Source: Actinomadura physcomitrii (GTDB lineage: Bacteria; Actinomycetota; Actinomycetes; Streptosporangiales; Streptosporangiaceae). From it: a DNA stretch of 64,000 nucleotides. Shown piece by piece: positions 17,375 through 45,847 of the stretch; the first letter of the stretch is position 1; each line of letters starts with the position of its first letter. The notes under the pieces are model-generated. The model was not told the DNA's origin. It saw only the letters and a list, made by a program, of their open reading frames with translations, and ran no database searches. Location: NCBI RefSeq assembly GCF_008923205.2, contig NZ_WBMS02000002.1, positions 62,001 through 126,000 of the forward strand, in the 5' to 3' direction. The position numbers and the translations under genes were made by a program.

Positions 17375-17375
17375 T

Positions 17376-18230: not shown

Positions 18231-18245
18231 AAGGAGTCCGCGTCG

Positions 18246-24113: not shown

Positions 24114-25253
24114 ATGAGGCGCCGGAACGCCGCGAGGAAACGTCGTCTGCGTACCGTGGTCGGAGCGAGCGTGGCGGTCGCCGGTGCGGCCGGCCTCGTC
24201 GCCGGGTCGCTGTACGCCGGCCACACCGGGGAGGGCGCGCAGGCGGCGAAGCTCGCCGGGGACGCGCAGGCCCGCAGAGCACAGGCCGGCGGCGCGCGGG
24301 CGTCGAGCGCGCAGCCGCGGGCGGCGGCGCTCGCGGCGCGGCTCGCCGGACGGCTCGGCGGACGGACCGCCGGCGGGTACCTCGACGCCGCCGGACGTCC
24401 CGTCGTCACGGTCGCCACCGCGGCGGACGCGGCGATGGTGCGGTCGGCGGGCGCCGTCCCGAAGATGATGCGGACGAGCCCGCGGACCCTGGCCAGGACG
24501 ACCGCCGCGCTGCGCCGGTCGATGGCCGGGACGCCCGGCACCGGATGGGCCGTCGACCCGGCGACGTCGCAGGTCGTGATGTGGGTCGACGACTCGGTGA
24601 AGGGCGCCCGGATGGCCGGGGTGCGGCGCGCGGCGGCGGGCATGGGGACGGCGGTGCGGATGGTGCGCCTCCCGGGCCGGCTGCACACCCTCGCGCTCGG
24701 CGGCGACGCGATCTTCGGAGGCGGCGCGCGCTGCTCGCTGGGCTTCAACGTCGAGCGGGGCGGGCAGCCGTTCTTCCTCACCGCCGGGCACTGCGGGAAC
24801 ATCGTGAAGGACTGGACCGCCGACCAGGCGGGCGCGCAGGCTCTCGGCACGACGGTGCAGAGCGACTTCCCGGGCAACGACTTCGCGCTCGTCCAGGCCA
24901 CGGACGACGGGCAGAGCGCGGTCGACCTGCACGACGGCACCGCGCAGCCGATCGCGAAGGCCGCCGACGCGGTGGTCGGCCAGCAGGTGGCGCGCAGCGG
25001 CAGCACGACGGGCGTGCACACCGGGCGGGTCACGGCGGTCGGCGCGACGGTGAACTTCCCGGAGGGGACGGTCACCGGGATGATCCAGACGACCGTCTGC
25101 GCCGAGCCGGGCGACAGCGGCGGCCCGCTGTTCAGCGGGAAGACCGCGCTGGGGCTGACGTCGGGCGGGTCGGGCGACTGCCAGACCGGCGGCGTCACGT
25201 TCTTCCAGCCGGTCACCGAGGCGCTCCAGACGTTCGGCGCGCAGATCCCCTGA
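24114..25253 (+). CDS. Secreted trypsin-like serine protease (S1, streptogrisin type)
   Basis: A 379-residue preproprotease. A twin-Arg-free signal region (about 12-35, VVGASVAVAGAAGLVAG) precedes a long pro-region of about 170 residues with the alpha-lytic-type segment GWAVDPATSQVVMWVDDSV. The mature domain starts near GGDAIFGGGARCSLGFNV. The catalytic triad is visible: His in FFLTAGHCGN, Asp in FPGNDFALV, Ser in EPGDSGGPLFS. Four Cys can form the two usual disulfides. GGAGGG lies seven bases before the ATG. A hairpin follows the stop. Confidence 0.93.
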   Translation: MRRRNAARKRRLRTVVGASVAVAGAAGLVAGSLYAGHTGEGAQAAKLAGDAQARRAQAGGARASSAQPRAAALAARLAGRLGGRTAGGYLDAAGRPVVTVATAADAAMVRSAGAVPKMMRTSPRTLARTTAALRRSMAGTPGTGWAVDPATSQVVMWVDDSVKGARMAGVRRAAAGMGTAVRMVRLPGRLHTLALGGDAIFGGGARCSLGFNVERGGQPFFLTAGHCGNIVKDWTADQAGAQALGTTVQSDFPGNDFALVQATDDGQSAVDLHDGTAQPIAKAADAVVGQQVARSGSTTGVHTGRVTAVGATVNFPEGTVTGMIQTTVCAEPGDSGGPLFSGKTALGLTSGGSGDCQTGGVTFFQPVTEALQTFGAQIP

Positions 25254-29135: not shown

Positions 29136-30455
29136 TCAGCGGCGGTAGAGGGTGAACTTGTCCTCGCCGATGCGCTCGCGCAGCGCCGGGTCGTCGATGC
29201 CCTGGCCCTCGCCGGTGGCGCCGCAGAGGACGGCGACCTTGCCGATGTGCTGGTTGGTCTGGACGGCTCGGGTCGCCTCGCCCGCCTCGTCCAGCGGGAA
29301 CACCGAGGACAGCGTCGGGTGGATCATGCCGAGCGAGAACAGCCGGTTCACCTCGACGGCCTCGTGGTAGTTGAAGCCGTGCGAGCCGATGATGCTCTTC
29401 AGCCGCATCCACAGGAACCGGTTGTCGTACTCGTGCTTGAAGCCGGTCGACGAGCCGCAGGTGACGATCTTGCCGCCGCGCTTGGCGACGTAGACGGACG
29501 CGCCGAACGTCTCGCGGCCGAGGTACTCGAACACGATGCCGGGGTCCTCGCCGACGAGGCGGCGGATCGCCTCGCCGAGCATCCGGCCCGCCTTCGGGTG
29601 CCGCAGGCCCTGCTCGCCGAGGTTCAGCTCGCTGCGGTTGATGACGTGCTCGCAGCCCTGCGACCGGACGATCTCGGCCTTCTCTTCGGAGGAGACGACG
29701 CCGACCGGGATGCCTCCGCCGTTCCTGACCAGCTGCGTCGCGAACGAGCCGAGCCCGCCCGTCGCGCCCCAGATCAGCACGACGTCGCCCTGCTTCATGC
29801 GGGCGCCGTGGCTGCCGACGAGCATCCGGTACGCGGTCGCGGCGCAGAGCGTGTTAGAGCCCGCCTCCTCCCAGGTGAGGTGCGCGGGCTTGCGGATCAG
29901 CTGGTTCGCCTTGACGATGCAGTACTCGCCGAGCGACCCGAAGTTGGTCTCGAAGCCCCACGCGAGCTGCGACTCCGACATCATGCCGTCGTCGTAGGAG
30001 CCGTGGTCCTCCTCGTCCACGTAGGACGGGGACAGCACGACCTTGTCGCCGGCCTTCCAGTTCTTCACGCCGCTGCCGGTGCGGACGACGACGCCGGAGC
30101 CGTCGGAGCCGAGGATGTGGTACGGCAGGTCGTGGCGGGCGCCGTACCAGCCCTGCCGGCCGAACTTCTCCAGGAACGCGAACGTCGGCACCGGCTCGAA
30201 GATCGCCGACCAGACGGTGTTGAAGTTGATCGCCGCCGCCATCACCGCGACCACGCACTCGTCGGGCGCCAGCTCGGGCATGTCGACCTCGCCGACGTGC
30301 ATGGATTTGCGCACGTCCTTGTCGGTCTGGCCGTCGAAGATGCCGACCTCGTCCTTGCGGGTGAACGCGGCGCGGAACCGGGTCGGCAGGTCGATCTCCT
30401 GCAGCTCGGGTCCGCTCGCTCCGGACCGGACGGCGTCGAGCAGGTCGTGGGCCAT
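29136..30455 (-). CDS. ccrA: Crotonyl-CoA carboxylase/reductase
   Basis: A 439-residue medium-chain reductase that carboxylates 2-enoyl-CoA with CO2 and NADPH. Crotonyl-CoA gives ethylmalonyl-CoA; longer enoyl-CoAs give alkylmalonyl-CoAs. Signatures: LAPDECVVAVMAAAINFNTVW, LPYHILGSDGSGVVV, KVVLSPSYVDEEDHG, WGATGGLGSFATQLVRNGGG and GSHGFNYHEAVEVNRL. CGGAGGACACTC precedes the ATG. It is the second gene after the polyketide synthase (36 bp gap, same strand), which argues strongly that its product is the synthase extender unit. Confidence 0.95.
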   Translation of the reverse strand: MAHDLLDAVRSGASGPELQEIDLPTRFRAAFTRKDEVGIFDGQTDKDVRKSMHVGEVDMPELAPDECVVAVMAAAINFNTVWSAIFEPVPTFAFLEKFGRQGWYGARHDLPYHILGSDGSGVVVRTGSGVKNWKAGDKVVLSPSYVDEEDHGSYDDGMMSESQLAWGFETNFGSLGEYCIVKANQLIRKPAHLTWEEAGSNTLCAATAYRMLVGSHGARMKQGDVVLIWGATGGLGSFATQLVRNGGGIPVGVVSSEEKAEIVRSQGCEHVINRSELNLGEQGLRHPKAGRMLGEAIRRLVGEDPGIVFEYLGRETFGASVYVAKRGGKIVTCGSSTGFKHEYDNRFLWMRLKSIIGSHGFNYHEAVEVNRLFSLGMIHPTLSSVFPLDEAGEATRAVQTNQHIGKVAVLCGATGEGQGIDDPALRERIGEDKFTLYRR

Positions 30456-30491
30456 GAGTGTCCTCCGTGAACGACGGGGTGGGGCGCGGCC

Positions 30492-33400
30492 TCAGCGGGC
30501 CGGAGTTGACCGTGCCGCGGTCCGGGCGCGGCCGGACGCGTCGCGCGCGTCCGGGCCGTCCGCGGGCCGCCGGGTGCCGCCGTCCGCGCCCGCGGCGCGT
30601 CCGGCGAGCCGGCCCTCCAGGTGCGCGGCGAGGATCTCCACGCCCGGCGGGTCCAGCAGGTTCAGGTGGTGCACCCCGGGGATCGTGACGATCTCCAGGT
30701 CGGAGCAGAGCCCGCCGAAACCGTTGGTCCCGTCGAGCACGTAGCGCGCGTCGCGCACCGCCCAGGGGGTCTCCTCCGGGGCGTGGTAGAGGATGACGCG
30801 GCCGTCGTAGGGCCGCGGCTGGTACGCCTCCAGGGATCGGGTGTCCTGGTGGGACGTGAGCTGGTGGGTGAGGGCCGCCGGCGGGATGTAGTCCACCAGC
30901 GGCGCCGCCCGCTCCATGACCAGCGCGAACTGCGCCTCTTCGTCCAGTCCGGACAGCTCGTCGTAGGTGAGCGTGACGTCCAGGCCGTACGTCTGGTTGA
31001 TGTAGTCGGCGAACGCGGCGAACCGGCGGGCGAGGGTGTCGGACTCGTCGTCCACCGCGAGGGGGATGCCGGCGTCGAACAGCGCGACGAACTCGACGTC
31101 GCGGCCGGCGGCGGTGAGCTGCCGGGCGGTCTCGTAGGCGAGGACGCCGCCGAACGACCAGCCGCCGAGCCGGAACGCGCCCTCGGGCTGCGCCTCGAGC
31201 AGGTGCTGGACGTAGCGGGCGGCGCGCTCCTCGACGGACGGGGCGTCCTCGAACCGCTCCAGGCCGTAGACGGGCTGGTCGGCACCGAGCAGGTCGATGA
31301 GCTGCCGGTAGCAGGCGGTGGTGCCGCCGGCGGGGTGCGCGATGAAGATCGGGCGGCGGTCGCCGGTGGGCTTGAGCGGCCGGACGGTCTGCCGCGCGGC
31401 CTCCTCGTCGGCGGCCCGGATGACCTCCGCGACGTTCTCCGCGGTCGGGACCTCGAACAGCTCGCCGCGCGTCACTTCTCTGTTCTCCCCGACCAACCGA
31501 CCCCGACCGACCTCCCGGGCCAGTTCGGCGGCGACCATCGCGACGACCTGGTCGGCCTGGTGCTCCTGGCCGCCGAGGTCGGCGAAGAAGTCGGCGGTGA
31601 CGCCGACCCGGTCGAGGCCGAGGACGTCCTCGAAGATCCGGACGGCGAGGCGCTCGGCGGCGTCGCGCGGCATGACGTAGCCGGACTCGGCGTTCGACAC
31701 GGCGGTGGACGGGGCGGCGGCGCCGGCGAGGCCCAGCTCGCCGGCGGCCCACTCCTCGAACACGTTGACGCTGGCGCCCTGCAGCAGCACGGACGGCGGG
31801 ACGGTCAGGCCGAGGTCGTGCTCGACGCCGCTCTTGATCCGGACGGCGACGAGGGAGTCCAGGCCGAGGTCGGTGAGCGGGACGGCGGGGTCGAGGCGCT
31901 CCGGGTCGAACCCGAGGACGGACGCGATCCGGTACCGGACCCGCGCGGCGATCAGCGCGCGGGCCTCGACGGGGTCGAGGTTCTTGAGGGCGTCGACGCC
32001 GGGCCAGTCGCCCGCGTCGTCCGCGCCGCGCTCGGCCGCCGCCTCGGTCAGCGCCGCGAAGTAGGGCATGTTGCGGATCTCGGGGAACAGCTCGACGGCC
32101 GTGACCGGGTCGAACCGCAGTACGCCCGCCGCGGTCGTGCCGTGCGCGAGGAGCGCTTCGAGGGCCTCGGCGCCCTCCTCGGGGCTGATCGGGTCGATGA
32201 CGGTCACCGCGGTCTCGGCCGCGCCGCCGACGCGCGACCACGTGCCCCAGTTGATCGTGGTGCCGGGCCGGCCGTGCGCCCGCCGGTACGCGGCGAGCGC
32301 GTCGATCGCGGCGTTCGCCGCCGCGTACGCGGCCTGGCCGGGCGAGCCGAGCAGCGCCGCCGCCGACGAGTGCAGCGCGAACCAGTCGAGGCCGGCGTCC
32401 CAGGTGGCGTCGCTGAGCCGCCGCGCGCCCTCGACCTTCGCCGTCCACACCCTGTGGAGATCCTCGGCGCCGAGGTCGGCGATCAGCCGGTCGTCGATCG
32501 CGCCGGCGCCGTGCACGACGCCGCGCAGCGCCAGGCCGCCCTCCGTGGCGGCCTTCACCAGGCGCTCGGCGGTGCCGGGCGCGGCGATGTCGCCGAGGAC
32601 GACGCCGACGTCCACCCCGCTCTCGCGCAGCTTCGCGATCACCTTCTCGGCGCCGGCGCCGGGGCCGCTCCGGCCGGACAGCACGATCCGTCCGGCGCCG
32701 CGCTCGGCCAGCAGCCGCGCGGTGACCAGGCCGATCCCGCCGTACCCGCCGGTGATGATGTAGGCGCCGCCGCGCCGGACGATCTTCCTGGGCCTGGCGT
32801 CGGAGTCGGGGAGGGCGGCCTGCGCGAGGCGCGCCGCGTACCTGCGGCCGGCGCGCCAGGCGACCTCGCGGGCGGCGCCATCGCCGAGCAGCTCCCGGAC
32901 CAGGTCGTCGGGCCGGTCGACGTCGACGAGCGTCGCCCGCTGGACGGTCCGCTCGAACGCCAGGACGCGGGTCAGCGCGGCGGCGAACCCGTGCCCGGGC
33001 TCGCCGGCCTCGCCGTCCAGCACGGGGACGGCGCGGTGCGTCGCGACGTACAGGCGGGGGCCGTCCGGCAGGGAGCGGCTCGTCTCCGCGATGGCGAGCA
33101 CGAGGTCCTCGTCGACGAGGTCGGCGGCCGGGACGAGCACGACCCCTTCCACGCCGGAAGTGTCGCCCAGGTCGGTGCGGTCGCGGCGGACGGCGCGGCG
33201 TCCGCTGCTTTCCAGCCCGGCGGCGGTCGCTGCGGCGAGGGCGTCATCGTCGTCGGCGAGGATCAGCCATGTGCCGTCACGCTCGCCGGGCTCGGGGGCC
33301 TCCGCTTCGTCCCACAGCAGCTCGACCAGCTTGTCCGCGACGGGGACGGGGACGTCGTGGCGCTCGGTGCGGCGCAGCACGATGCCGGTCGCCTCCGCCA

Positions 33401-36400
33401 GGACCTCGCCGCCGGCGCCGAGCAGCAGGACGGAACCGGTCATCTCGCCGTCGTCCTGCACCGCCGCCACGCGGACGTGCCCGCCTCGGTGCGTGGGCCC
33501 GTGCACGCGCAGGCTGCCGATCGTCTCGGCGAGCCAGACGCCGCCGCCCGCGACCGCCGCCGCCTCCGCGGACAGCGCGGCCAGGCAGCGGTCGAACACC
33601 TCGGGGTGCAGCCGGTAGTGCCGCGACCCGCGCTCGGCGCCCGCGACCTCCGTCGCCGCGCCGGGCTCCGGCGCGGGGGCGGGACGCGCGTCCTCGCCGA
33701 CGTCCGCGCTGGCCAGCCGCGCCCACGTGCCGGCGGGCGTCAGCGCGTGCACCTCGACGCGCTGCTCGGCCTCGGCGAACGTCGTCGTCACCGTCGTGCG
33801 CCCGGCGAGCGCGAGCGGGCGCTCCATCCACAGGCTGTTGACGCGGACGGCCTCGGTGCCGAGCGCCGTCGCGCCCGCCGCGAGCGCCATCTCCGCGAAC
33901 GCCGCGACCGGCAGCGCGGGCAGGCCGTGCACGGCGAGGTCGCCGAGCCACGGCTGCGCGTCCAGGCCGACGTCGGCGCGCCAGGCGTGCCGGTCCTCAC
34001 CGGGCAGCTCGACGTGCGCGCCGAGCAGCGGATGCTCGTCACGGCCGCCGCGGTTGCGGTTCGACAGGTCGACCCAGTGGCGCTCGTGCCGCCACGGCGA
34101 CTGCGGGACGTCCACGATCCGGCCGTCCGAGGGCTGCGCGACGGCGAGGCCGTGCGCGGCGAGCGTCGCGAGCTGCGCGTGGAACGTCAGCGTGTCGTCG
34201 GTTTCCTGGCCCTTCGGCGCGCGCTTCAGCGTGTGCGTGACGAGGGCGCCGCTGCCGGCGAGGGTCTCCCCGACCGCGTGCGCGAGGATCGGATGCGCGT
34301 TGACCTCGACGAACGTCCGGAACCCGTCCTCGGCCGCCGCCGCCACCGCGTCCGTCAGCCGGACCGGGTTGCGCAGGTTCGCCGCCCAGTACTCGACGTC
34401 CAGCCGCGCGTCCTCGCCGTCGAACGCCCGGGGGTCGGGCAGCGCCGTCGTGTAGAGCCTGATGCCGTCGGCGAGCGGCGTGCCGGGTTCGAGGCCGACC
34501 TCGGCGAGCTGCTCGCGCAGGTTGGGCAGCAGCGGGTCGACCTGCGGGGAGTGCCCCGCGCCCTCCGCCTGCACCATGCGCGCGAGCCGGCCCTCCGCCT
34601 CCGCACGCTTGACGATCTCGGCGACCTGATCGGCGTCGCCCGTCACGACCGTCTGCTTCGGCGAGGAGTGCACCGCCGCATACACCTCGGGCAGCCCGTC
34701 CGCGAGCCGCTCGACGTCCTGCGCGGACGCGCCGAGCACCGCCATCGCGCCGCCGCCGACCAGTTGCGTCAGCAGCTTCGACCGCCGCACGATCACCCGG
34801 ACGCCGTCCTGCGGGGTGAGCGCGCCCGCGACGACCGCCGCCGCGACCTCGCCCATCGAGTGCCCGATCACCGCGCCCGGCACCACGCCGTACGCCTGCC
34901 ACATCCGGGCCAGGCCGAGCTGGACCGCGAAGAGCACCGGCATCGTGTCGGCCGGGCCGTCCGGCTTGCGGCCCTCCTCGAGCAGCGACCACAGGTCCGG
35001 GCCGCCCTCCTCGGCGAACAGGCCGTCCAGGTCGTCGATCGCCTCGGCGAACGCGGGCTCCTCCTCCAGCAGCCGCTGCGCCATGCCCGCGCGCTGCGCC
35101 CCGTATCCGGAGAACACCCAGACCGGACGTCCCGGGACGCCGAGCGCCGAACCCGTCACCACGCCCGGATGCGGACGGCCCTCCGCGAGCGCCTTCAGGC
35201 CCTCGACCAGGCCGTCGCGGTCGCGGGCCGACACCGCCGCGCGGGACCGGCCCCGCCCGCCGCGCCGGTGCAGCGTCCGCGCCAGGTCGGCGAGCTTCAC
35301 GTCGTCGCGGGCCGGGACCCACTCCGCCAGCAGCGCGGCGTGGTCGCGGACGCGGTCGTCGCTCGTGTCCGACAGCGGGAACGTCCGCACCACCGCCGGC
35401 CGGCTCGCGACCTCCTGCGCCGGAGCCTCCTCCAGCAGCACGTGCGCGTTCGTCCCGCCGAACCCGAAACCCGACACGCCCGCGCGCGCGGGATGGCTCC
35501 GCTCCGGCCACGGCGTCTCGTCCGCGACCACCCGGAGCCGCAGCTCGTCGAACGGGATGTGCGGATTCGGCTCCTTGTAGTGCGCGCTGGCCGGAATCAC
35601 CTTGTGGTGCAGCGCCAGGACGGTCTTGATAAGGCCCGCTATGCCCGCCGCCGACTCCATGTGGCCGAGGTTGCTCTTCGCCGACCCGATCAGCAGCGGC
35701 TCGTCCTCCGCCCGGCCCGCGCCGAGCACCTCCCCGACGGCCTTCGCCTCGATCGGGTCGCCCAGGAACGTGCCCGTCCCGTGCGCCTCGATGTAGTCGA
35801 CCTCGCCGGTCTCCACGCCCGCCGCCGCGTACACGTCCCGCAGCAGCGCCCGCTGCGCGTCCGAGTTCGGCGCGACCAGGCCGTTGGAGCGGCCGTCGGA
35901 GTTGACGCCCGAGCCCTTCACCAGCGCGAGGATCCGGTCGCCGTCGCGGACCGCGTCCGACAGCCGCTTCAGCACCACCGCGCCGCAGCCCTCCGCGCGG
36001 ACCATCCCGTCCGCCGACGCGTCGAACGCCTTGCAGTGCCCGTCCTTCGCCGTCGCGTCCGCCAGGTCGAACGTCATCGTCACCGTCGGCGACAGCAGCA
36101 CGTTCACCCCGCCGGCGAGCGCCACGTCCGCCTCGCCGCTGCGCAGCGCCTGCACCGCCAGATGCGTCGACACCAGCGACGACGAGCACGCCGTGTCCAC
36201 GATCATGCTCGGGCCGCGCAGGTCCAGCAGGTACGACAGCCGGTTCGCGATGATGCTCAGTGCCGCGCCCGTCGCCGTGAACGGCTCCAGCGACGCCAGG
36301 TCCGACGCGGTGAACGCCGCGTACTCCGGCGCCGACACGCCCACGAACACGCCGGTGCGGCTGCCGCGCAGCGACGCCGGCCCGATCCCCGCGTGCTCGA

Positions 36401-37061
36401 ACGCCTCCCACGCCACCTCGAGGACGAGCCGCTGCTGCGGGTCCATCACCGCCGCCTCGCGCGGCGTGATCCCGAAGAACTGCGCGTCGAACCGCGCCAC
36501 GTCGTCCAGGAACCCGCCGAGCCGCGTCGTCCGCGCCAGCCGGTCGGCGACCTCCGGGGAACCGTCGTCGAACGGGTCCCAGCGGCCGTCCGGCACCTCC
36601 CGGATCGCGTCGCCCCGGCCCGTCAGGAACCGCCAGTACTCCGCCGGGCCCGTCAGGTCGCGGTCGCCGCCGGGGAACCGGCAGCCGATCCCGATCACCG
36701 CGATCGGCTCGTCGTCGCGCGCCGCCGCCCGGACCGGCGCCGCCGCGGGCTCCGCTTCGGCCGCGGCCGAGGCGCCGCCCGCCAGCGCCCGGGACAGCTT
36801 GTTGATCGTCGGGTGCTCCCACACCAGCGTCGCCGGCAGCGCCCGGCCCAGCATCTGCTCGAGATCGCCCGCGATCGCGACCGCGTCCCGCGACGCCAGC
36901 CCGAACTCCTCGAGCGGACGGTCCGGGTCGACCTCGGCCTCGGGGATCCTGGAGCGCCGCGCGATCTGCTCGATCAGGTGCCGGCGAATCGCGTCCTCGG
37001 CGGCGCGAGTGTCGCCCTCCGCGGTGTCGCGCGCGGCTCCGGAACGATCGTTGCTCTGCAT
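30492..37061 (-). CDS. Single-module polyketide synthase, mycolate-condensase-like (ACP-KS-AT-DH*-KR-ACP-carrier*-TE)
   Basis: A 2189-residue type I synthase from ATG 37061 (GGGGGGAA upstream). N-terminal ACP 20-95 with S57 in [16 protein letters not shown], the form found in FadD32-loaded carriers. KS 117-545: C292 (DTACSSS), H427 (EAHGTGT), H467 (NLGHMES). AT 645-950: S735 (GHSMGE) and GAGH at 834-837, resembling the xAGH motif of ethylmalonyl-type ATs. DH-like 1010-1230 has Leu1042 for the catalytic His but keeps D1157, so it is probably inactive. KR 1430-1640: TGGYGGIG, K1542, Y1579, N1583, IDD motif. ACP 1695-1775: S1736. A second carrier-like domain (1797-1885) lacks the Ser (LGGQEH). 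TE 1903-2150: S1969, D1996, H2131. Predicted product: 2-alkyl-3-hydroxyacyl chain, transferred or released by TE. Confidence 0.93.
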
Positions 37062-37172
37062 GCGGTGGGTTCCCCCCATGAAACCGGGATCGTTCATCGA
37101 AGCGGAGGGACCACTTTGTCCTACGGTGACCGGCTCACGATGCGCACCCAGACCACTTTTCTCCCCTGCCAC

Positions 37173-37190
37173 TTGTCACGGTGATGACAA
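37173..37190. promoter_or_regulatory. Palindromic operator TTGTCA-N6-TGACAA, pks/mfs promoter region
   Basis: Perfect 6-bp half-sites with a 6-bp spacer, extended to CTTGTCA/TGACAAG. It lies in the 289-bp divergent region, 112 bp before the synthase and 161 bp before the transporter. The same half-sites with the same spacing occur upstream of the acyl-AMP ligase at 46030. This is the strongest sign of coordinated control in the cluster. Confidence 0.8.
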
Positions 37191-37350
37191 GACTCAGCAG
37201 TAACCAATGTGGCCTGATGGGATAGTTGAGGGGCTCTGCCCTAACAGCGGGCCGAGTGACCAGATGCCAACCAATAGTAACAATAGCCACGAACGCTTTT
37301 AGGGGGAAGCGGCGGATTTCCCGGCGGCACGGGACCCGCCGCGGGATCAG

Positions 37351-40017
37351 GTGACCCGGGGCCGATACCGATGGGCGCTGGCGGTGGTGGCCGTCAGCGC
37401 GTTCATGACCACCATGGACAACACGGTGGTCTTCACCGCGCTGCCCAGGATCATGGCCGACCTCGGCATGTCGTCCTCCGCCAAGGACTGGGTCGCCACC
37501 GGCTACATCCTCATGTTCTCCTGCCTGATGATCACCGGCGGACGGCTCACCGACCTGTACGGCTGCCGGCTCACCTTCACCACCGGCATGGTCGTCTTCA
37601 CCGCCGCCTCCGCCGTCTGCGGCCTGTCCCACACCTCCGAAGTGCTCATCCTCGCCCGCATCGTGCAGGGCGGCGGCGCCGCGCTGGTGCTGCCCGCCAC
37701 CCAGGTCATGGTCACCGTCGGGCGGAGCGACAAGCAGCGCTCCATCGGCAACATCGTCTTCATCGGCGCCGCGTCCAGCGCCACCGCGCTCGGCCCCACC
37801 ATCGGCGGCATCATCGTCGAGCACTTCCACTGGGGCTGGATCTTCCTGATCAACATCGTCCCCGGCGTCCTCGTCATCCTGCTCGGCGCCGTCGTCCTCA
37901 CCGGCCGCAGCAAGAACCCGCACGCCCGCATCGACCTGCCCGGCGTGCTCATCTCCGCGACGATGCTGTTCGCCTTCATCTACGGCCTCGAGGACGGCAA
38001 CAAGCACGGCTGGGGCGACCCGTCCGTGCTCAGCACCTTCGCGCTCGGCGCCATCGCGCTCGCCTGCTTCATCGTCGTCGAGAGCTGGGCCCCCGACCCG
38101 ATGATCGACCTGCGGTTCTTCCGCAACCGCGTCTTCACCGGCGGCCTGGTGTCCCAGATGCTCTACGGCATCGGCTTCAACGGGATGATGTTCTACTCCC
38201 AGCCGTTCCTGCAGCGCTTCCTCGGCTTCTCCCCGCCCGAGGCCGGCCTGGTCATGCTGCCCCCCGCCCTCACGATCATGGTGCTGACGCCCGTCGCGTT
38301 CGTGCTCGCCGCCAAGGTCGGCCCCCGGCCCGCCATCGGCGCCGGCATGGGCCTCATGGGCGTCGGCATGGTGCTGTTCTCCGCGCTCGGGATCGGCGAC
38401 GGGTACGCCGACCTCATGCCCGGCGTCCTGCTCGTCGGCGTCGGCGCCGCCCTCGCCATGCCCCTCGTCATGTACGTCCTCAAGGCCGTCCCCGAACGGC
38501 GCGCCGGCGTCGCCAGCGGCGTCATCAACGTCATCCGCGAGGCCTCCGGCGCGTTCGGCATCGCCATCGTCGGCCTGCTCATCCAGACCGTCCCCGACGA
38601 GGGCGCGAGCGCCGAGGCCCTCGAGACCTTCCGGCAGGGCACCTCCTCCGGGCTCGTCCTCGGCGCCGTCCTCGTCCTCATCGGCGGCGTCATCAGCGGC
38701 CTCACCCTGCCCAGCCGGCGCGGCTGGCTCGGCCCCAAGCACGGCAAGCAGACCCCGTTCGCCGAACCCGCCCTCGCGGGCGCCGCGCGCCCCGAACCCG
38801 CCCTCGCCACCGCCACCGCCGTCACCGCCACTCCCCGCGACCCGATCCCCGTCGTCCCGGGCCCGGACCCCGCCGGCGCGACCCCGTCCGCCGGCCCCGT
38901 CCAGGCGCCCACCCCCCTCAGGACGGAAACGGACACCATGGCCGCACCCCGCACCCCCGGTCCCCACTGGTGGAGCGACATCCCCGACGACGACGAGCCC
39001 GCCCCCCGGCACCCGTCCCCGCCGGGCACGACGTCCCCCTGGCAGGACTGGGCCGACACCGCCATCCCCACCTGGACCTTCCCCGCCGAGGAGCCCCCGC
39101 CGCCCACCAGCAAGTGGTTCGACGACGAGTCCGCCGCCCGCTCCCGCGGCACCCTCCCGCCCGACGACGACCCGCTGGCCACGCTCCCCGACCGCTGGAC
39201 GCCCGGCGGCTCCCCCCTCCCGGCCCCCACCCCCGAGACCGAACCCATAGCCGCCGCCCTCCTCAGCGAACTGGCGGCCCGCGGCGGGAACCCCCCGCAC
39301 GACGAGCAGGCGGCGGACGGCGAAGACCCCGCTCCCTCGGTGCCCCACGCCGCGCAGGGGCCGGAGTCCGCCCCCGGCGGCGCGGCGTCGTCCCCGCCCG
39401 ACGATGAACCCCTCGGCGAGGCGCCCGGCCCCGCGCCCGAAACGCCCCGACCGGATGCCGCGGACCCCGAAGCCCCGGTGGCGACGGCCGAGCCGAGCGG
39501 CGCGCAAGGCACCGCGCCGTCCCAGCCGATCACGCTGAACTGGGAGACCCCCGGCCCGTTGAGCACCCCGCCGACGCCCGGCCACGACGACGCCACGACC
39601 GCCCAAGGCGAGACGCGCGTGGGCGACTCCGGCCAGGCGGCGGAGAACCCGCCGGGCTCCGGGGCGTCGCCGCTGGTCGCGCCGGGTCAGGACGTCTCCG
39701 ATCCGCTGAGCGCCCCGGTGATGAGCGAGCCGGCGGGCGAGCCTCGCGGTGTGCCGGACGTCGACGAGCGGCCGGCTCACGTGCTCGGCGGCGAGCCTGG
39801 GGACGCCTGGGTGGCCGGACGCGGGGGCGCGGACCCGGCGGACGCGGCGGACCCGGCGGACGCGGCGGACGCGGCGGACGACGGGGAGGTGCCGGAGGTC
39901 GGCGGGCCGGGGTGGCCTCCGCCGCCGCCGGACGGATGGTTGTACACGCCGTACGTGCCCGAGGACGGGGAGCCGCCCGGCGAGCCGTCCGTCAGCCCGC
40001 GCAGCGATGCCTGGTGA
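37351..40017 (+). CDS. MFS transporter (DHA2, 14-helix type) with a 420-residue acidic Pro-rich tail
   Basis: An 888-residue protein. Residues about 1-465 are a complete DHA2-type major-facilitator exporter (FMTTMDNTVVFTALPRIMADL, motif A region GGRLTDLYGCRLTF, RIVQGGGAALVLPATQ). Such cores are normally about 480-550 residues long. The remaining roughly 420 residues are rich in Pro, Asp, Glu and Ala, with WW-type clusters (HWWSDIPDDDEP, WQDWADTAIPTWTF), and end in DGWLYTPYVPEDGE...SDAW. The tail should be cytoplasmic and disordered, perhaps docking partners. Start GTG 37351 has a weak GGGA site. The glycosyltransferase gene follows after 9 bp, so the two form an operon. Confidence 0.92.
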   Translation: MTRGRYRWALAVVAVSAFMTTMDNTVVFTALPRIMADLGMSSSAKDWVATGYILMFSCLMITGGRLTDLYGCRLTFTTGMVVFTAASAVCGLSHTSEVLILARIVQGGGAALVLPATQVMVTVGRSDKQRSIGNIVFIGAASSATALGPTIGGIIVEHFHWGWIFLINIVPGVLVILLGAVVLTGRSKNPHARIDLPGVLISATMLFAFIYGLEDGNKHGWGDPSVLSTFALGAIALACFIVVESWAPDPMIDLRFFRNRVFTGGLVSQMLYGIGFNGMMFYSQPFLQRFLGFSPPEAGLVMLPPALTIMVLTPVAFVLAAKVGPRPAIGAGMGLMGVGMVLFSALGIGDGYADLMPGVLLVGVGAALAMPLVMYVLKAVPERRAGVASGVINVIREASGAFGIAIVGLLIQTVPDEGASAEALETFRQGTSSGLVLGAVLVLIGGVISGLTLPSRRGWLGPKHGKQTPFAEPALAGAARPEPALATATAVTATPRDPIPVVPGPDPAGATPSAGPVQAPTPLRTETDTMAAPRTPGPHWWSDIPDDDEPAPRHPSPPGTTSPWQDWADTAIPTWTFPAEEPPPPTSKWFDDESAARSRGTLPPDDDPLATLPDRWTPGGSPLPAPTPETEPIAAALLSELAARGGNPPHDEQAADGEDPAPSVPHAAQGPESAPGGAASSPPDDEPLGEAPGPAPETPRPDAADPEAPVATAEPSGAQGTAPSQPITLNWETPGPLSTPPTPGHDDATTAQGETRVGDSGQAAENPPGSGASPLVAPGQDVSDPLSAPVMSEPAGEPRGVPDVDERPAHVLGGEPGDAWVAGRGGADPADAADPADAADAADDGEVPEVGGPGWPPPPPDGWLYTPYVPEDGEPPGEPSVSPRSDAW
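39829..39880. repeat. Short tandem repeats in the transporter tail
   Basis: Units GCGGACCCG and GCGGACGCG alternate several times, encoding an ADPADAADP-type run. This length-variable tract in a disordered tail can expand or contract by replication slippage without changing the frame. Confidence 0.8.
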
Positions 40018-40026
40018 GGAGCCGCC

Positions 40027-41259
40027 ATGAGCCGAATCGTGATCTTCGCCGCGGGGTCGCGCGGCGACATCCAGCCGTGCGTGGCGCTCGGGCGGGCGCT
40101 GCGCGAGCGGGGTGACGAGGTCCGGCTCGTCGCGAGCGCGCGGTACGCGCCGATGGCGATGGCGGCGGGCCTGGAGCTGGCACCGCTGACGGCCGACCCG
40201 ACGGAGATCCTGGAATCGGACGCGGGGCAGGAGCTGCTGGCCGGCGGCCGGAACCCGGTGAAGTTCCTCGGCGGGTTCCGGCGCATCCTCGGGCCGATGG
40301 CGGAACGGCTGCTGGGCGAGTGCCTGGACGCCTGCAAGGGCGCCGATCTGATCCTGGGCCCGACGCTGGGCTTCCTGCCGGAGCACATCGGCGCGCATCT
40401 GGGCGTGCCGCGGGCGCTGATCCACTTCCAGCCGAGCCAGCCGACGGGGGCGTTCCCGCATCCGTTCGTGCCGCAGGCGCGGATGCTGGGCCGCTGGGGG
40501 AACCGGGCGAGCTTCGGGGCGGTCGACCAGATCGCGTGGCAGCTGTCGCGGCCGTTCATCAACCCGTGGCGGGACGAGCGGCTGGGGCTGCCCCGGCTTC
40601 CGCTGCGGGGCCTGCGGCGGGACGGGACGGCGGTGCTCGCGTGCTTCAGCGAGGCCGTGGTGCCGCGTCCGAAGGACTGGCCGGCGAGCGTCCACATGAC
40701 CGGGTACTGGTTCTGGGACGAGCCGGAATGGGAGCCGCCGGAGGAGATCACCGCGTTCCTGGAGGCGGGGCCCGCGCCGGTCTACGTCGGGTTCGGGAGC
40801 ATGGTGCCGAAGGACGCGCGGATGACGGGGCGGGTCGTCCGGACGGCGCTGCGGCTGGCGGGCCTGCGCGGCGTGGTGCAGGGCGACCCGGACACCTCGG
40901 ACGACGAGGTCCTCGCGGTGCGGGACGTCCCGCATGCGTGGCTGTTCCCCCGCATGTCGGCGGTCGTGCACCACGGCGGCGCCGGGACGACGGCGGCGGG
41001 GCTGCGGGCGGGCGTCCCGACGGTGGTGTGCCCGTTCTTCGGGGACCAGCCGTACTGGGGCGAGCGGGTCGCCGCGCTCGGCGCGGGGCCGGCGCCGCTG
41101 CCGTTCCGCGCGATGACGGTGCCGCGGCTCGCGCGGAGGCTGCGGCGCGTCGCGGAGGACCAGGAGATGGCGGACCGCGCGTACGAGGTGGGCCGGCGCA
41201 TCCGGGCGGAGGACGGCGTGGGCCGCGCCCGCGACGTCATCGACGGGCTGCTGCGCTAA
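40027..41259 (+). CDS. Glycosyltransferase family 1 (sterol/lipid glucosyltransferase type)
   Basis: A 410-residue GT-B enzyme. The N-terminal half starts IVIFAAGSRGDIQPCVALGRAL, as in GT28-like lipid and sterol glucosyltransferases. The nucleotide-sugar site is MSAVVHHGGAGTTAAGLRAGVPTVVCPFFGDQPYWGERV. Similar actinobacterial enzymes glycosylate lipids and polyketides. AGGAG lies before the ATG, 9 bp after the transporter stop. In this context it most likely adds sugar to the synthase product or its acceptor. It converges on the MmpL gene with only three bases between the stops. Confidence 0.92.
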   Translation: MSRIVIFAAGSRGDIQPCVALGRALRERGDEVRLVASARYAPMAMAAGLELAPLTADPTEILESDAGQELLAGGRNPVKFLGGFRRILGPMAERLLGECLDACKGADLILGPTLGFLPEHIGAHLGVPRALIHFQPSQPTGAFPHPFVPQARMLGRWGNRASFGAVDQIAWQLSRPFINPWRDERLGLPRLPLRGLRRDGTAVLACFSEAVVPRPKDWPASVHMTGYWFWDEPEWEPPEEITAFLEAGPAPVYVGFGSMVPKDARMTGRVVRTALRLAGLRGVVQGDPDTSDDEVLAVRDVPHAWLFPRMSAVVHHGGAGTTAAGLRAGVPTVVCPFFGDQPYWGERVAALGAGPAPLPFRAMTVPRLARRLRRVAEDQEMADRAYEVGRRIRAEDGVGRARDVIDGLLR

Positions 41260-41262
41260 AAG

Positions 41263-44001
41263 TCAGTCGGAGCTCCACGTCCAGCCGTTGCCGTCGGGGG
41301 ACGGGACGATCCGGCGCTTGACGCGCGGTGGCCGGACGGGCTGCGGCTGCGGCCGGCCGTTCGCCCACGGCGCCCACGGTTCCCGCGGCGCCTGCGGTGC
41401 TTGCTGCTGGCGCGGCGCGGACGGGTGCGGGTCGCGGAACACCAGCTGCGGCCGTTCGCCGTCGACCGGCCCGCTCGGGGTGGGCTGCAGGACGGACCGG
41501 AACGCGTCGTTCGCGTCCCGCACCGGCACGGCGGCGGGCTCGGGCGCAGGCGGCGCAGGTGGCACGGCAGGCGCAGGTGGCGCAGGCTCAGGCCTTGCCG
41601 GCGCCGGCGGCGCCTCCGACGAGGCCTGCTCCCAGTGCACGCGGTACGGGAACGGCTGCGCCTCCGGGAGGGGCGGCGGGACCGCGACCGCCGCCGCACC
41701 CGCGCCCGCGGCGGCCGCGCTGTGCTCGCGCAGGTCCATCTTGGCGTGCAGGAACGCGAGCGGGCCGGGCAGCCACCAGTTCGCCCTGCCGAGGAACCGC
41801 ATCGTCGCGGGCACCAGCAGGGACCGGACGAGCACGGCGTCCACGACGACGGCGACGAACATGCCGACGCCGATCAGCTTCACGACGGTGATGCCGGCCA
41901 TGCTGAACGCGGCGACGACGACGAGGAACAGCAGGGCGGCGCTGGTGATGATGCTGCCGGTGTGCTGCATGCCGCGGGCGACGGCGGCGCGGTTGTCGTG
42001 GCTGCGGTCCCACTCCTCGCGGATGCGGCTGAGCAGGAAGACCTCGTAGTCCATGGACAGGCCGAACACGACGGCGAGGATCAGGATCATGCTGGTGGCC
42101 TCGACGCCGCCGGTCGGGGTGAAGTCCAGGACCCCGGCGAGGTGCCCGTACTGGAAGCCCCAGACGATCGCGCCGAACGACGCGCCGATCGACAGCACGT
42201 TCATGACGATGGCCTTCAGCGGCAGCAGGACCGAGCCGAAGAACATGAACAGCAGCAGGAACGTGGCGATCCCGACGGCGACCGCCATCTTCGGCAGGCT
42301 GCGCATCAGGCTGGACATCAGGTCCATCTGCGCGGCGGTGCTGCCTCCGACGTCGATGTGCATCGGGGTGCCGTCCGAGGTCAGGCTCATCGCGCGGATC
42401 TTCTTGACGAGGTCCTGCGCGTGCTTGTCCATGGGTTCGTACTTGTGCGTGACGGAGATCCGCACGCCGCCGTACTCGCCGGAGTAGCCGGTGAACTTGG
42501 CCTCGGTGACGCCCGGCAGCGCGGCGAGCGTCTTGCGGAAGTTCTCCAGGTAGGGCGGGATGTTGTCGCCCGACTTGGACGGCTTCCAGTCGCGCGGGAT
42601 CAGGTCGCCGGAGACGACCACGTCGATCGGTTCGGCGGACCCGTTGGGGAAGTCGCGCTTGACGGTCTCGACGACGGCGCGGGTCGGGCTCGCCTTCGGC
42701 AGGACGCGGGCGTCGACGCTGCCGAACTGGACGTGCAGGAACGGCTGGAACATGACGCCGAGGATCACCACCACCCCGGCGAAGTACGGCAGCGGGTGCT
42801 TCATGACGCTGTGGCCGAGCCGGTACCAGAAGCCGCTGTCCCGGTCGCGCTGCGCGCGCTTGGACGTCGGGCGCCGCCAGGGCATCCGGCCGCCCTCGAC
42901 GCGCGTCCCGAGCAGGGCGAGCATCGTCGGCAGCAGGACCGTCGCGCCGAACACGGCGACCATGACGGTGGCGATGCCGGCGAGCCCGATGGTCCGCAGG
43001 AACATCTGCGGGAACAGCAGCAGGCCCGCGAGCGCGGCGGACACGGTGACGCCGGAGACCATGATGGTGCGGCCGGCGGTGGCGAGGGTCGCGGCGAGCG
43101 CGTCCTCCCGGGCCGGGAGCATCGCCTGCTTGTAGGCCTTCTTCGCGGCCTTGCGCGCGCGCTTGTCGCGCTCGCGTTTCCAGGGTTTGCCGGGCGGTAG
43201 GCCCCTTGCGGCCATGCCGCGCTGCAGTTCCTCGCGGAACCGGCTGATGATGAACAGCGAGTAGTCGATCGCGAGGCCGACGCCCATCATCGTGACGACC
43301 TCGAGCGCGAACGACGTCACGTCGGCCACGTAGGTGACCACGTGCAGGACGGCCAGGCCGCCGATCGTGGAGAAGGCGGCCACGCCGATCGGCAGGAGGC
43401 CGGCGACGATCGCGCCGAACAGCAGCACCATCAGGATCAGCAGCGGCAGGATGGTGATCGTCTCGGCGTTGACGATGTCGGCGACGACCTGCTCGCCGAA
43501 CTCCTGCCCGAGCGGGACGGCGCCGCCGAACTGGACGGTCAGCCCCGGCGCCCGCAGCCGGTCCTTCAGCTTCTGGTAGTTCTCGATCTTGGTGGGGTCG
43601 TCGCCCTTCAGCTTCAGCGCGACGAACGTCTCGTGCTTGTCGCGGGAGGCGAAGGACGCGGCGTCCTTCTCGTCGAACGACCAGTAGGAGATGATCTCGG
43701 CGACCTGGCTCTTCGGGAGCCGCGCCGCGGTGGTGACGACGGCGGCCTCGTAGCGCGGGTCGTCCACCGTCATCGTGTCGCTCTTGTAGAGGACGAGGAC
43801 GTCGGGGTTCGTGCTGCCGAAGTAGGTCGCGCCGAGCCGCGCGACGAGCGTCGAGGACGCGTTCGGGTCCTCGAAGCCGCCCGCCTTGAACTTCGCGAGC
43901 ACGCCGAGGCCCCAGGCGCCCGCCACGCCGGTCAGCAGCAGGATGCAGACGAGGGTGACCCACCGTCGCCGATGGATGAGACGCCCCAGCCCCGAGAGCA
44001 T
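41263..44001 (-). CDS. MmpL/RND-type lipid exporter
   Basis: A 912-residue proton-driven transporter of the MmpL family. Helix 1 at about 14-34, a large periplasmic domain, then helices 2-6; this is repeated in the second half. The proton-relay Asp-Tyr pairs are visible in GVGLAIDYSLFIISRFREEL and VFGLSMDYEVFLLSRIREEW, as in MmpL3. The C-terminal 150 residues are Pro/Ala-rich and cytoplasmic, ending GNGWTWSSD. AGGAGGACC before ATG 44001 sets the start. It follows the acyl-AMP ligase by 49 bp, so export of the synthase-derived lipid is the likely job. Confidence 0.93.
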   Translation of the reverse strand: MLSGLGRLIHRRRWVTLVCILLLTGVAGAWGLGVLAKFKAGGFEDPNASSTLVARLGATYFGSTNPDVLVLYKSDTMTVDDPRYEAAVVTTAARLPKSQVAEIISYWSFDEKDAASFASRDKHETFVALKLKGDDPTKIENYQKLKDRLRAPGLTVQFGGAVPLGQEFGEQVVADIVNAETITILPLLILMVLLFGAIVAGLLPIGVAAFSTIGGLAVLHVVTYVADVTSFALEVVTMMGVGLAIDYSLFIISRFREELQRGMAARGLPPGKPWKRERDKRARKAAKKAYKQAMLPAREDALAATLATAGRTIMVSGVTVSAALAGLLLFPQMFLRTIGLAGIATVMVAVFGATVLLPTMLALLGTRVEGGRMPWRRPTSKRAQRDRDSGFWYRLGHSVMKHPLPYFAGVVVILGVMFQPFLHVQFGSVDARVLPKASPTRAVVETVKRDFPNGSAEPIDVVVSGDLIPRDWKPSKSGDNIPPYLENFRKTLAALPGVTEAKFTGYSGEYGGVRISVTHKYEPMDKHAQDLVKKIRAMSLTSDGTPMHIDVGGSTAAQMDLMSSLMRSLPKMAVAVGIATFLLLFMFFGSVLLPLKAIVMNVLSIGASFGAIVWGFQYGHLAGVLDFTPTGGVEATSMILILAVVFGLSMDYEVFLLSRIREEWDRSHDNRAAVARGMQHTGSIITSAALLFLVVVAAFSMAGITVVKLIGVGMFVAVVVDAVLVRSLLVPATMRFLGRANWWLPGPLAFLHAKMDLREHSAAAAGAGAAAVAVPPPLPEAQPFPYRVHWEQASSEAPPAPARPEPAPPAPAVPPAPPAPEPAAVPVRDANDAFRSVLQPTPSGPVDGERPQLVFRDPHPSAPRQQQAPQAPREPWAPWANGRPQPQPVRPPRVKRRIVPSPDGNGWTWSSD
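41552..41581. repeat. Direct repeat in the MmpL Pro-rich tail
   Basis: GGCGCAGGTGGC occurs at 41552-41563 and again at 41570-41581 (18-bp period, in frame), part of a Pro/Ala low-complexity tract. Confidence 0.6.
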
Positions 44002-44050
44002 GGTCCTCCTGTGTCGTCGCGGCCGCGGGACGCGGCGTGCGAGGCCGAGA

Positions 44051-45847
44051 CTACTTGCGGGACGCGAGCCGCGCCGCCGTGGTCGGCAGCGCGCCGTCCA
44101 GGTACCGCCGCCGCGTCGCCGCCCGCGCGATCTTGCCGCTGGACGTGCGGGACACCCCGCCCGGCTCGACGAGCACGAACGCGTGCACACTCATCTCGTG
44201 CTCGACGTTCACGGCGCCGCGCACCGCCGACTCGACCTCGTCGAGGTCCAGCCGGCCGAGCGGCACCCGCCGGTTCCGCTCGGCGACCACGACGAGCCGC
44301 TCGGTCTCCTCGCCGGGCAGCGCGAACGCGGCGACGAAGTCGGGCCGCACCGCCGGGTGCGCCTCCTGCGTGGTGACCTCGATGTCCTGCGGGTAGTGGT
44401 TGCGGCCGTCGACGATGATCAGGTCCTTGATGCGGCCGGTGACGTACAGCTCGCCCTCGTGGACCACGCCGTAGTCGCCGGTCTTCATCCACGGCCCGGC
44501 CGGCAGATCGCCCGGGTCGGCGAGCTCGCCGCCGAAGGTGTCCTGACTGCGCTCGGAGTTGCGCCAGTACCCTGCGGCGGTGTTCGGACCGTGCACCCAG
44601 ATCTCGCCGACGTGCCCGTCGGGCTGCTCGGCGCGCGCGTCCGGGTCGACGATCGCGACGATCTGCCCGGACGGCCGGCCGCACGACACCAGCGTGCTGG
44701 CCCGCTCGGCGTCCGCGTCGCACAGCCGCACCTCGCCCTGCGTGAGCGCGTCCCGGTCCACCGAGATGATCTTCGGGGGGGCGTCCTCGGCGGCGGCGGT
44801 GACGAATACCGTCGCCTCCGCCAGCCCGTACCCGGGGGCCTGCGCGCCCGGGCGCAGGCCCGCCGGCGCGAGCGCCTCCGCGAACGTCGCGAGCGTCGAG
44901 GTGCGGATCGGCTCCGCGCCGTTCAGGCAGGTCGTCAGCCCGGACAGGTCCAGGCCCTCCAGCTTCTCCGGCGACGCCATCGACGCCACGTACTCGTACG
45001 CGAAGTTCGGGCCCGCGGTGTAGACGTTCTTGCCCGGCCGGGCCGCGATCAGCTGCAGCCAGCGCATCGGGTTCATGATGAACGACACCGGGTCGGTGTA
45101 GATCGCGTGGTCGCCGCGCACCAGCGGCAGCGCCATCGTCGCGATCAGGCCCATGTCGTGGAACAGCGGCAGCCAGCTCACGAGCTCGGGGTCCGGCTTC
45201 TCCGGCGCCCATCCCGCCCACAGCTGCGCCGCGTTCGCCGTCACGTTGCCGTGGGTGATCTCCACGCCCGCCGGGCGGCGCGTCGACCCGGACGTGTACT
45301 GCAGGTACGCCAGGTCGTCGAACCCGATCGGCTCGTCCTCCCAGGACGCGGCGAGCCCGAGGTCGACCTCCTCGGCGAACAGGATCTCCTTCGGCTGCGG
45401 GACATCGTGGTCGGCGAGGAACTTCTCCACGTGCGGCAGCGCGTTCCGGGTCGTGACGATCACCGCCGGCTCGCTGTCGGTGTACGCGCCGATCAGCCGG
45501 TCGGCGTGCCCGGGCAGGTCGGGCGAGAACAGCGGCACCGCGATGACGTGCGCGTACATCGCGCCGAGCATCGTCATCATGTACTCGAGCGTCTGCGGCA
45601 GCAGCAGCGCGGCGCGCTCGCCGGGACCGGTCACCTGGCGGAGCGCGGTCGCCGTCGCGCGGGCGCGCCTGTCGGTCTCCGCCCAGCTCAGCGTGATGTG
45701 CTTGCCGGCCGGGTCCAGCGAGTAGTCGACGAAGGTGAAGGCCGGGGCGTCCGGCTTCTCCCTCGCCCACCGCGCGACCCGCTCGATCAGCGGGGTGCGG
45801 CCGGAGCCGCCGGGGAGGAGTTCGGGAAGCAGCGAGCCCAATGCCAT
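44051..45847 (-). CDS. Fatty acyl-AMP ligase, FadD32-like
   Basis: A 598-residue FAAL that activates a fatty acid as acyl-AMP and passes it to an acyl carrier protein rather than CoA. The P-loop reads YTSGSTRRPAGVEITHGN, the form seen in mycobacterial FadD32, with Arg and Ala replacing the usual Gly and Lys. Further motifs: WLPLFHDMGLIATMALPL, NGAEPIR, GYGLAEATVFV, KTGDYGVVHEGELYVTGR, DLIIVDGRNHYPQDIE and RTSSGKIAR near the end. Its natural acceptor is the N-terminal ACP of the synthase at 30492. The ATG has GGGAG upstream; the MmpL gene follows in the same operon. Confidence 0.93.
   Translation of the reverse strand: MALGSLLPELLPGGSGRTPLIERVARWAREKPDAPAFTFVDYSLDPAGKHITLSWAETDRRARATATALRQVTGPGERAALLLPQTLEYMMTMLGAMYAHVIAVPLFSPDLPGHADRLIGAYTDSEPAVIVTTRNALPHVEKFLADHDVPQPKEILFAEEVDLGLAASWEDEPIGFDDLAYLQYTSGSTRRPAGVEITHGNVTANAAQLWAGWAPEKPDPELVSWLPLFHDMGLIATMALPLVRGDHAIYTDPVSFIMNPMRWLQLIAARPGKNVYTAGPNFAYEYVASMASPEKLEGLDLSGLTTCLNGAEPIRTSTLATFAEALAPAGLRPGAQAPGYGLAEATVFVTAAAEDAPPKIISVDRDALTQGEVRLCDADAERASTLVSCGRPSGQIVAIVDPDARAEQPDGHVGEIWVHGPNTAAGYWRNSERSQDTFGGELADPGDLPAGPWMKTGDYGVVHEGELYVTGRIKDLIIVDGRNHYPQDIEVTTQEAHPAVRPDFVAAFALPGEETERLVVVAERNRRVPLGRLDLDEVESAVRGAVNVEHEMSVHAFVLVEPGGVSRTSSGKIARAATRRRYLDGALPTTAARLASRK

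Follow-up and report, generated by a model that had tools for sequence, protein, structure and literature searches.

A predicted mycolate-type lipid synthesis locus with a crotonyl-CoA carboxylase/reductase in Actinomadura physcomitrii

In mycolic acid synthesis, Pks13 joins a chain activated by an FAAL to a long carboxyacyl-CoA, and trehalose receives the product. According to PMC9210659, mycolic acids are restricted to the Corynebacteriales, Pks13 has the domain order ACP-KS-AT-ACP-TE without reductive domains, and PpsA, ordered ACP-KS-AT-DH-KR-ACP, works within the modular ppsABCDE set. The locus compared here with both systems lies in a window of 64,000 nt from Actinomadura physcomitrii (GCF_008923205.2, NZ_WBMS02000002.1, positions 62,001–126,000, forward strand), the window being this whole stretch of analyzed DNA. 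It shares with the Pks13 system a ligase and, on one single-module protein, an N-terminal carrier, KS-AT, a second carrier and a TE. It differs in a KR and a dead DH between the AT and the second ACP, in a CCR that replaces the AccD of the Pks13–FadD32–AccD4 set, and in missing the family cut-offs. With PpsA/FadD26 of phthiocerol synthesis it has in common the order ACP-KS-AT-DH-KR-ACP and a closer ACP-KS identity, but the synthase here ends in a TE, carries a dead DH and is accompanied by a CCR. Judging from sequence, we consider it likely (probability of about 0.7) that the locus encodes a mycolate-type condensation system whose synthase shares a clade with Pks13 and whose products are 2-alkyl-3-hydroxy lipids.

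Layout and recurrence of the locus

The locus spans positions 29136–45847, bounded by the stop codon of the CCR gene and the start codon of the ligase gene. Pfam and NCBIfam matches, strand and spacing confirmed all six genes that a preliminary description had placed here, in three operons: CCR and synthase (minus strand), MFS transporter and glycosyltransferase (plus strand), and MmpL transporter and ligase (minus strand). The crotonyl-CoA carboxylase/reductase (CCR; 29136..30455, 439 aa, TIGR01751) adjoins the single-module synthase (30492..37061), which has 2189 aa from a conserved start within an ORF open to 37172. The MFS transporter (37384..40017, 877 aa, MFS_1), with its likely start at 37384 in an ORF of 37351–40017, is followed by a GT1/GT28-type glycosyltransferase (40027..41259, 410 aa), which has Pfam matches to EryCIII-like_C, UDPGT and Glyco_transf_28 and a sterol 3-beta-glucosyltransferase as its best solved structure (177 bits). 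The MmpL-family RND transporter (41263..44001, 912 aa, PF03176) has an ORF open to 44190, and the fatty acyl-AMP ligase (44051..45847, 598 aa) was found to be FadD32-like by NF038339, solved structures and a tree.

Both Actinomadura and the family to which it belongs carry the locus widely; its nearest named hosts are Actinomadura, and it was detected in 10 of the 11 same-genus genomes among the matches listed, the window genome counted. A search for the same gene set in genomes of the family had been proposed as a check, and because the set recurs widely across genus and family, its assembly here is not a matter of chance. An FAAL lies near the synthase in 25 and an MmpL in 29 of 47 loci, some of which are cut by contig or fetch edges. 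Wherever a CCR is in view (45 of 45 loci), its gene follows that of the synthase on the 3' side in the same orientation; in 2 of the 47 (L019 and L020) the contig ends before the CCR slot. Relatives from another family, here called f17-type, are without a CCR and retain the dehydratase histidine (4/4); in two of these four, a carboxyl transferase lies directly 3' of the synthase, in the CCR slot, likewise adjoining it as in the Pks13 system. The genus Actinomadura is not known to produce mycolates. No description of the locus or its product was found in a literature search, for which subscription papers were mostly out of reach.

Domains and ancestry of the synthase

Pfam, NCBIfam, a 46-row alignment and trees gave the synthase the order ACP-KS-AT-(dead DH)-KR-ACP-(carrier-like segment without Ser)-TE, with Pfam matches to KS, AT, KR, two PP-binding domains, TE and a PKS dehydratase, all on the minus strand. 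The N-terminal acyl carrier domain (36780..36989, approximate limits) carries an 11-residue motif whose Pks13 counterpart is ELGLSSRDAVA. The ketosynthase (35265..36710) displays DTACSSS, EAHGTGT and KSNLGH, and the acyltransferase (34170..35123) displays GHSMGE together with GAGHSP in the stretch of the specificity site; a motif search of the accessible part of the AT review PMC6164871 returned no rule for this GAGH site. The vestigial dehydratase (33354..34034) is matched by PS-DH and by PKS_DH_N (73 bits, residues 1047–1141), and the histidine of its HxxxG motif is replaced by leucine (GDLAVHG). The ketoreductase (32235..32768) has the NADPH motif GGYGGIG and the catalytic Ser and Tyr. It is followed by the C-terminal acyl carrier domain (31752..31940, LGLDSL), by a carrier-like segment without serine (31428..31655, approximate limits, DLGGQEHQ) that was read from the alignment, and by the thioesterase (30633..31355, GWSFGG and HHLNLL).

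The N-terminal ACP Ser, the KS Cys-His-His and the AT Ser are kept in 46/46 alignment rows, and the KR Ser and Tyr, the second ACP Ser and the TE Ser and His in 44/44 covering rows. The dehydratase histidine is missing in all 48 CCR-type synthases (the 46 aligned rows plus L199 and L201), which rules out a live dehydratase. The preliminary description had read a single-module synthase with a Pks13-type N-terminal ACP and the reductase inside it; these features stand, the KR with its catalytic pair, and the dehydratase had been overlooked. Since its histidine is gone throughout, the expected product remains a 3-hydroxy one.

The NCBIfam model mycolic_Pks13 (NF040607) scored 1288 bits on the synthase, below its cut-off of 2100 and nearly equalled by a generic PKS model (1231 bits). 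The best solved structure in a phmmer search was mycocerosic acid synthase (958 bits), with Pks13 at 905 bits. The TE end (residues 1782–2153 in a shorter numbering) shows 32–37% identity to the end of Pks13, and the ACP-KS part 58–60% to mycobacterial PpsA-like enzymes versus 50–53% to Pks13. A first KS tree, from a panel without PpsA, had set the synthase beside Pks13 at 100/98; because the PpsA-like enzymes are closer in identity, the tree was rebuilt with them, and the sister statement is now weaker.

In a tree of ACP-KS-AT (988 columns; 48 rows, comprising 15 of 48 CCR-type synthases, 8 of 28 Pks13 loci, 4 f17-type, 4 PpsA-like and 17 others), the CCR type, the CCR-less f17 type and Pks13 form one clade at 97/95, and the PpsA-like enzymes are the next branch beside it. 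The same grouping was obtained with the KS alone (91/82). Left out of two of the trees before building, as long-branch or near-duplicate rows, were L025_bact3, L044, L014 and L010; also left out were L007, L008, L085, two L025 rows, L031, L209, L077, L165 and L163. The grouping upholds the earlier assignment to the Pks13 type, but a test did not reject the alternative tree joining the CCR type with the PpsA-like enzymes (p-AU 0.142).

Chain activation, extender supply and the predicted product

The best curated model for the ligase is that of FadD32 (NF038339; 575 bits, below the cut-off of 975), and its best solved structures are FadD32 entries (442–450 bits); 5EY8 is given as FadD32 in PMC11837247. 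In the tree its group, supported at only 86/88, contains FadD32, the ligases of the f17 type and two lineages from the window genome; the ligases from these two other places in the genome are nearer to it than FadD32 is.

The CCR passes TIGR01751 (518 bits, cut-off 379) and is the only match over that cut-off in the window genome. Its best solved structure is the octenoyl-CoA reductase/carboxylase 4a0s (562 bits, residues 6–435), which we take to be CinF; the structure of the Kitasatospora CCR scores 486 bits. CinF-type CCRs belong to modular antibiotic lines. The window enzyme resembles CinF and other alkylmalonyl-forming CCRs over its near full-length sequence and in its CO2 residues, but its partner, in all 45 loci with the CCR in view, is a synthase of the Pks13 clade. 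The CO2-binding residues N81, F170, E171 and H365, given for KsCcr in PMC10966969, map to N79, F168, E169 and H359. An alignment of 46 CCRs, which replaced a strict motif regular expression that missed 13 of 47 loci, shows Asn, Glu and His kept in all 46, with Phe in 42 and Tyr in 4. The kept pocket, and the CCR's occupation of the slot filled by carboxyl transferase in the two f17 relatives, agree with the proposal that it stands in for a carboxylase.

By analogy with FadD32 and Pks13, the ligase would adenylate a fatty acid and transfer it to the N-terminal carrier. In the AccD role, the CCR would turn a 2-enoyl-CoA, NADPH and CO2 into alkylmalonyl-CoA; its active-site residues are observed, and this substrate is the presumed one. 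The AT may then place the alkylmalonyl extender on the second carrier, and the KS would join the two chains once to give a 2-alkyl-3-keto thioester. The built-in KR, whose residues are seen in place, would yield the 3-hydroxy form, where the pathway is expected to stop because the dehydratase is dead. Release by the TE could be to water or to a sugar or polyol. Genes, residues and ancestry all speak for the 2-alkyl-3-hydroxy acid synthesis foreseen in the preliminary description, the product itself being predicted.

A CCR that makes ethylmalonyl-CoA or a similar unit would instead lead to a 2-ethyl or other 2-short-alkyl 3-hydroxy fatty acid, nearer to PpsA/phthiocerol chemistry than to mycolates. 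Consistent with this, the Kitasatospora CCR forms ethylmalonyl-CoA (PMC10966969), identity over the ACP-KS part is highest with PpsA-like enzymes, and the tree uniting these with the CCR type is not rejected (p-AU 0.142). Nevertheless, among solved CCRs the octenoyl-CoA enzyme ranks first, ahead of that of Kitasatospora (562 vs 486 bits), and the alignable TE region and the f17 neighbours favour the Pks13 side; we therefore regard a short branch as unlikely.

We find it rather improbable that the locus makes a diffusible secondary metabolite, such as a glycosylated lipid antibiotic or a TE-formed beta-lactone, with the glycosyltransferase and MFS protein serving export or self-protection. These two families are common in antibiotic clusters, and in NCBIfam the glycosyltransferase scores best on a model of a rifamycin-inactivating transferase, its 104 bits falling far short of the cut-off of 800. 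An envelope lipid is the better fit to the wide conservation and to the MmpL and PS1-like partners. The CCR could also act as a trans enoyl reductase, following the DH and leading to saturated 2-alkyl acids, a role suggested by its resemblance to PKS enoyl reductases (Pks2 match, 42 bits) and by the presence of a DH domain. With the DH histidine missing in 48/48 synthases and the CO2-binding residues kept in 46/46 CCRs, this role is disfavoured and appears very improbable.

Under the mycolate-type reading, the origin of the pathway would become visible from a relative of its synthase that works by the same ligase-carrier logic in Actinomadura and the surrounding family. It would also offer a natural comparison of an in-protein KR plus dead DH with a separate reductase, and of CCR with AccD. 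As a tentative extension, on balance doubtful, we suggest that mycolate-type lipids may predate the mycolata and extend beyond them, with a parallel envelope-lipid pathway in the Actinomadura family. An ancestral reducing synthase might have lost its dehydratase, kept its KR and taken on CCR in place of a biotin-dependent carboxylase, and an antigen-85-like enzyme would attach the product outside the membrane; Pks13 would then be a stripped-down branch of the same lineage. The locus predicts a lipid class for which strains that are easy to grow could be examined directly. Mycetoma is caused by some species of Actinomadura, and an undescribed envelope lipid could matter there too.

Putative partners for transfer and export

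After release, the glycosyltransferase may add a sugar, and export of the product would fall to the two pumps, MmpL and MFS. In many relatives, an antigen-85/PS1-like acyltransferase may move the acyl chain outside the membrane. A PS1/antigen-85-like esterase gene was found in 18 of 47 loci; the best PDB match of the cluster esterase is PS1 (E 1e-33), and its best NCBIfam match is weak, a PHB-depolymerase model that gives 45 bits where the cut-off is 150. Ser and His are present in 24/24 cluster rows and Glu in 22/24, with Asp in the other two (L197, L198). The cluster esterases share the sequence family, the Ser-Glu-His and the HxWxxW stretch with PS1/MytA and antigen 85, presumably mycoloyltransferases, but lie on a branch separate from the mycolata enzymes in the tree. 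The window's own cluster lacks the gene; its genome has an unlinked relative on another contig (G000:C49, 58% identical to the esterase of L015), from which the acyltransferase could possibly be supplied.

The MmpL protein matches PF03176 (240 bits) and scored 372 bits on the MmpL3 model NF052608, below the cut-off of 1400. It forms its own clade in an unresolved fork; orthology to MmpL3 is unsupported, the tree showing no specific grouping with it. A plasmid search with the MmpL returned one record, from Nonomuraea (46%). The MFS transporter matches MFS_1 at 152 bits and ends in a Pro-rich tail of ~430 aa, which differs from species to species, and its match in Actinocorallia is limited to about residues 1–445.

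Gene content and spread of the locus

The preliminary description had proposed a six-gene system for synthesis and export of a mycolate-like lipid at 29136-45847, and Pfam/NCBIfam profile matches recovered all six genes. The crotonyl-CoA carboxylase/reductase gene (CCR; 29136-30455, minus strand) forms an operon with that of the single-module polyketide synthase (30492-37061, minus), the MFS gene (37384-40017, plus) with a glycosyltransferase gene (40027-41259, plus), and the MmpL gene (41263-44001, minus) with that of a FadD32-like fatty acyl-AMP ligase (FAAL; 44051-45847, minus). Considering the observed gene content, domain order, active-site states, conservation and, within its limits, tree position, we give a probability of about 70% to a mycolate-type system producing 2-alkyl-3-hydroxy lipids. 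The ligase would pass an acyl chain to the carrier, and the product would be released to a polyol, glycosylated and exported, with the envelope as its predicted place; chain lengths of the lipid are likewise predictions. Actinomadura are not known to make mycolates. A literature search, with most subscription journals outside its reach, found no paper on the locus or its product.

Judged by the synthase, the closest named relatives of the genome are Actinomadura: the search returned 15 Actinomadura records at 82–94% identity (best segment) and two Actinocorallia at 62–64%, the remaining 19 of 36 loci being distant polyketide synthases from other bacteria (27–47%). With the divergent dehydratase stretch as query, the synthase was detected in at least 31 of 200 family genomes (the window's own included) and 10 of 68 genera, a minimum because further synthases of the family, L199 and L201, came to light when 296 genomes of the class were searched with a Pks13 model. 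Among the genomes listed for that query, 10 of 11 from the same genus were positive; the 149 genomes without a match are not itemised. Near the synthase in 47 loci were found MFS (44), glycosyltransferase (38), MmpL (29), ligase (25) and a PS1/antigen-85-like esterase (18), all minimal counts, since contig ends or fetch limits cut several loci short.

The genome measures 10.0 Mb in 110 contigs, with the window on C23. Its contigs C16 and C20 score identically for a FAAL, for a KS fragment and for a reductase, reflecting either a duplicated stretch or assembly redundancy. The MFS protein has a proline-rich, poorly conserved C-terminal tail of ~430 aa (38716-40017, plus). A sortase gene (PF04203; 28331-29068, plus) adjoins the end of the CCR gene, and a sortase relative occurs close to the locus in several Actinomadura records and two further genomes. 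A trypsin-family protease with an alpha-lytic-type prodomain is encoded at 24114-25253 (plus).

Active sites of the synthase and CCR

Pfam identified KS, AT, dehydratase, KR, two carriers and TE in the synthase, bearing out the ketoreductase that the preliminary description had placed inside it and adding a dehydratase that it had left out. The window protein was aligned with 45 distinct orthologs, giving 46 different rows once the duplicates L064 and L067 had been removed; the N-terminal carrier Ser, KS Cys-His-His and AT Ser were kept in every row. The KR Ser and Tyr, second carrier Ser, and TE Ser and His were present in all 44 rows covering them, the shortened L020 and L060 falling outside these counts. 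The dehydratase His was absent from all 46, as well as from L199 and L201 of the same type, and a carrier-like stretch ahead of the TE was without Ser in the 42 rows aligning there. From these residue patterns, a single condensation followed by ketoreduction and release is therefore expected.

CCR was the sole one of 57 matches in the genome above its curated cut-off, and its nearest solved structure was 4a0s, an octenoyl-CoA reductase/carboxylase. Four residues hold CO2 in the Kitasatospora CCR (PMC10966969); the residues named there correspond to N79, F168, E169 and H359 of the window CCR. An alignment of 46 different CCRs shows no variation at Asn, Glu and His; the Phe position carries Tyr in 4 sequences and Phe in the other 42. 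In every one of the 45 loci with CCR in view, its gene sits 3' of the synthase gene and on the same strand; in L019 and L020 the contig stops before any CCR. The 2999-base gap between the two matches in L021 arises because the synthase match there is broken, the synthase open frame stopping 44 bases ahead of the CCR match.

Ancestry of the synthase and relatives without CCR

Four loci of another family of relatives (f17: L196, L197, L198, L200) encode ligase and synthase with no CCR match within 19.5 kb, and all four synthases keep the dehydratase HxxxGxxxxP motif, whereas the CCR-type enzymes have lost its His. CCR presence thus tracks loss of this His across 52 synthases (L019 and L020 without CCR in view), which share ancestry and are not independent cases. 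A carboxyl transferase directly follows the synthase in L196 and L200 (606 and 541 bits). This ligase–synthase–carboxyl transferase row resembles the gene order fadD32-pks13-accD4, although the L196 and L200 synthases differ from the Pks13 system in carrying KR and an intact dehydratase motif.

CCR-type, f17-type and Pks13 synthases joined at 91/82 in a KS-only tree with PpsA-like enzymes in the panel and at 97/95 in an ACP-KS-AT tree, where the PpsA-like enzymes formed the next branch (100/97); the latter label comes from our reading of size and neighbouring KS genes for L239 and from grouping with it for L240-L242. Constraining the CCR type with the PpsA-like enzymes cost 9.8 log units and was not rejected (p 0.142), and a phmmer search with the whole protein ranked mycocerosic acid synthase first among solved structures (958 bits; Pks13, 905). 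PpsA is without a TE in the domain order given in PMC9210659. The C-terminal stretch of the synthase, TE included, aligns with Pks13 at 32–37% identity, which favours the Pks13 side over PpsA.

Esterases and variant loci

In Actinocorallia (L015, L018) and A. fibrosa (L013), the MmpL and glycosyltransferase genes are separated by one or two esterase genes, whose starts look signal-peptide-like in our reading. Pfam assigned the esterases of L015, L071 and L197 to PF00756, and the best solved structure for the L015 protein was PS1 (120 bits, E 1e-33), which we take to be a corynebacterial mycoloyltransferase, followed by antigen 85C (56 bits). The triad Ser and His were kept in 24/24 cluster rows, with Glu in 22 and Asp in 2. 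Against a mycoloyltransferase likeness, however, the best NCBIfam match was a weak PHB-depolymerase model, and the mycolata enzymes sit on a separate branch from the cluster esterases. No esterase gene was found in the window cluster; contig C49 of the same genome encodes a relative with 58% identity to the L015 protein, within the cluster-esterase clade.

In L071, a single 1077-aa open frame (15458-18691, minus) holds MmpL (PF03176) and esterase (PF00756), a possible transporter-acyltransferase fusion; the related L072 has them as two overlapping genes. Loci of one genus (g52; L066:15938-19501, plus, and L069) encode a different ligase, 38–39% identical, beside the glycosyltransferase. The protein after it in L066 reads to us like a condensation domain, perhaps marking a lipopeptide side branch.
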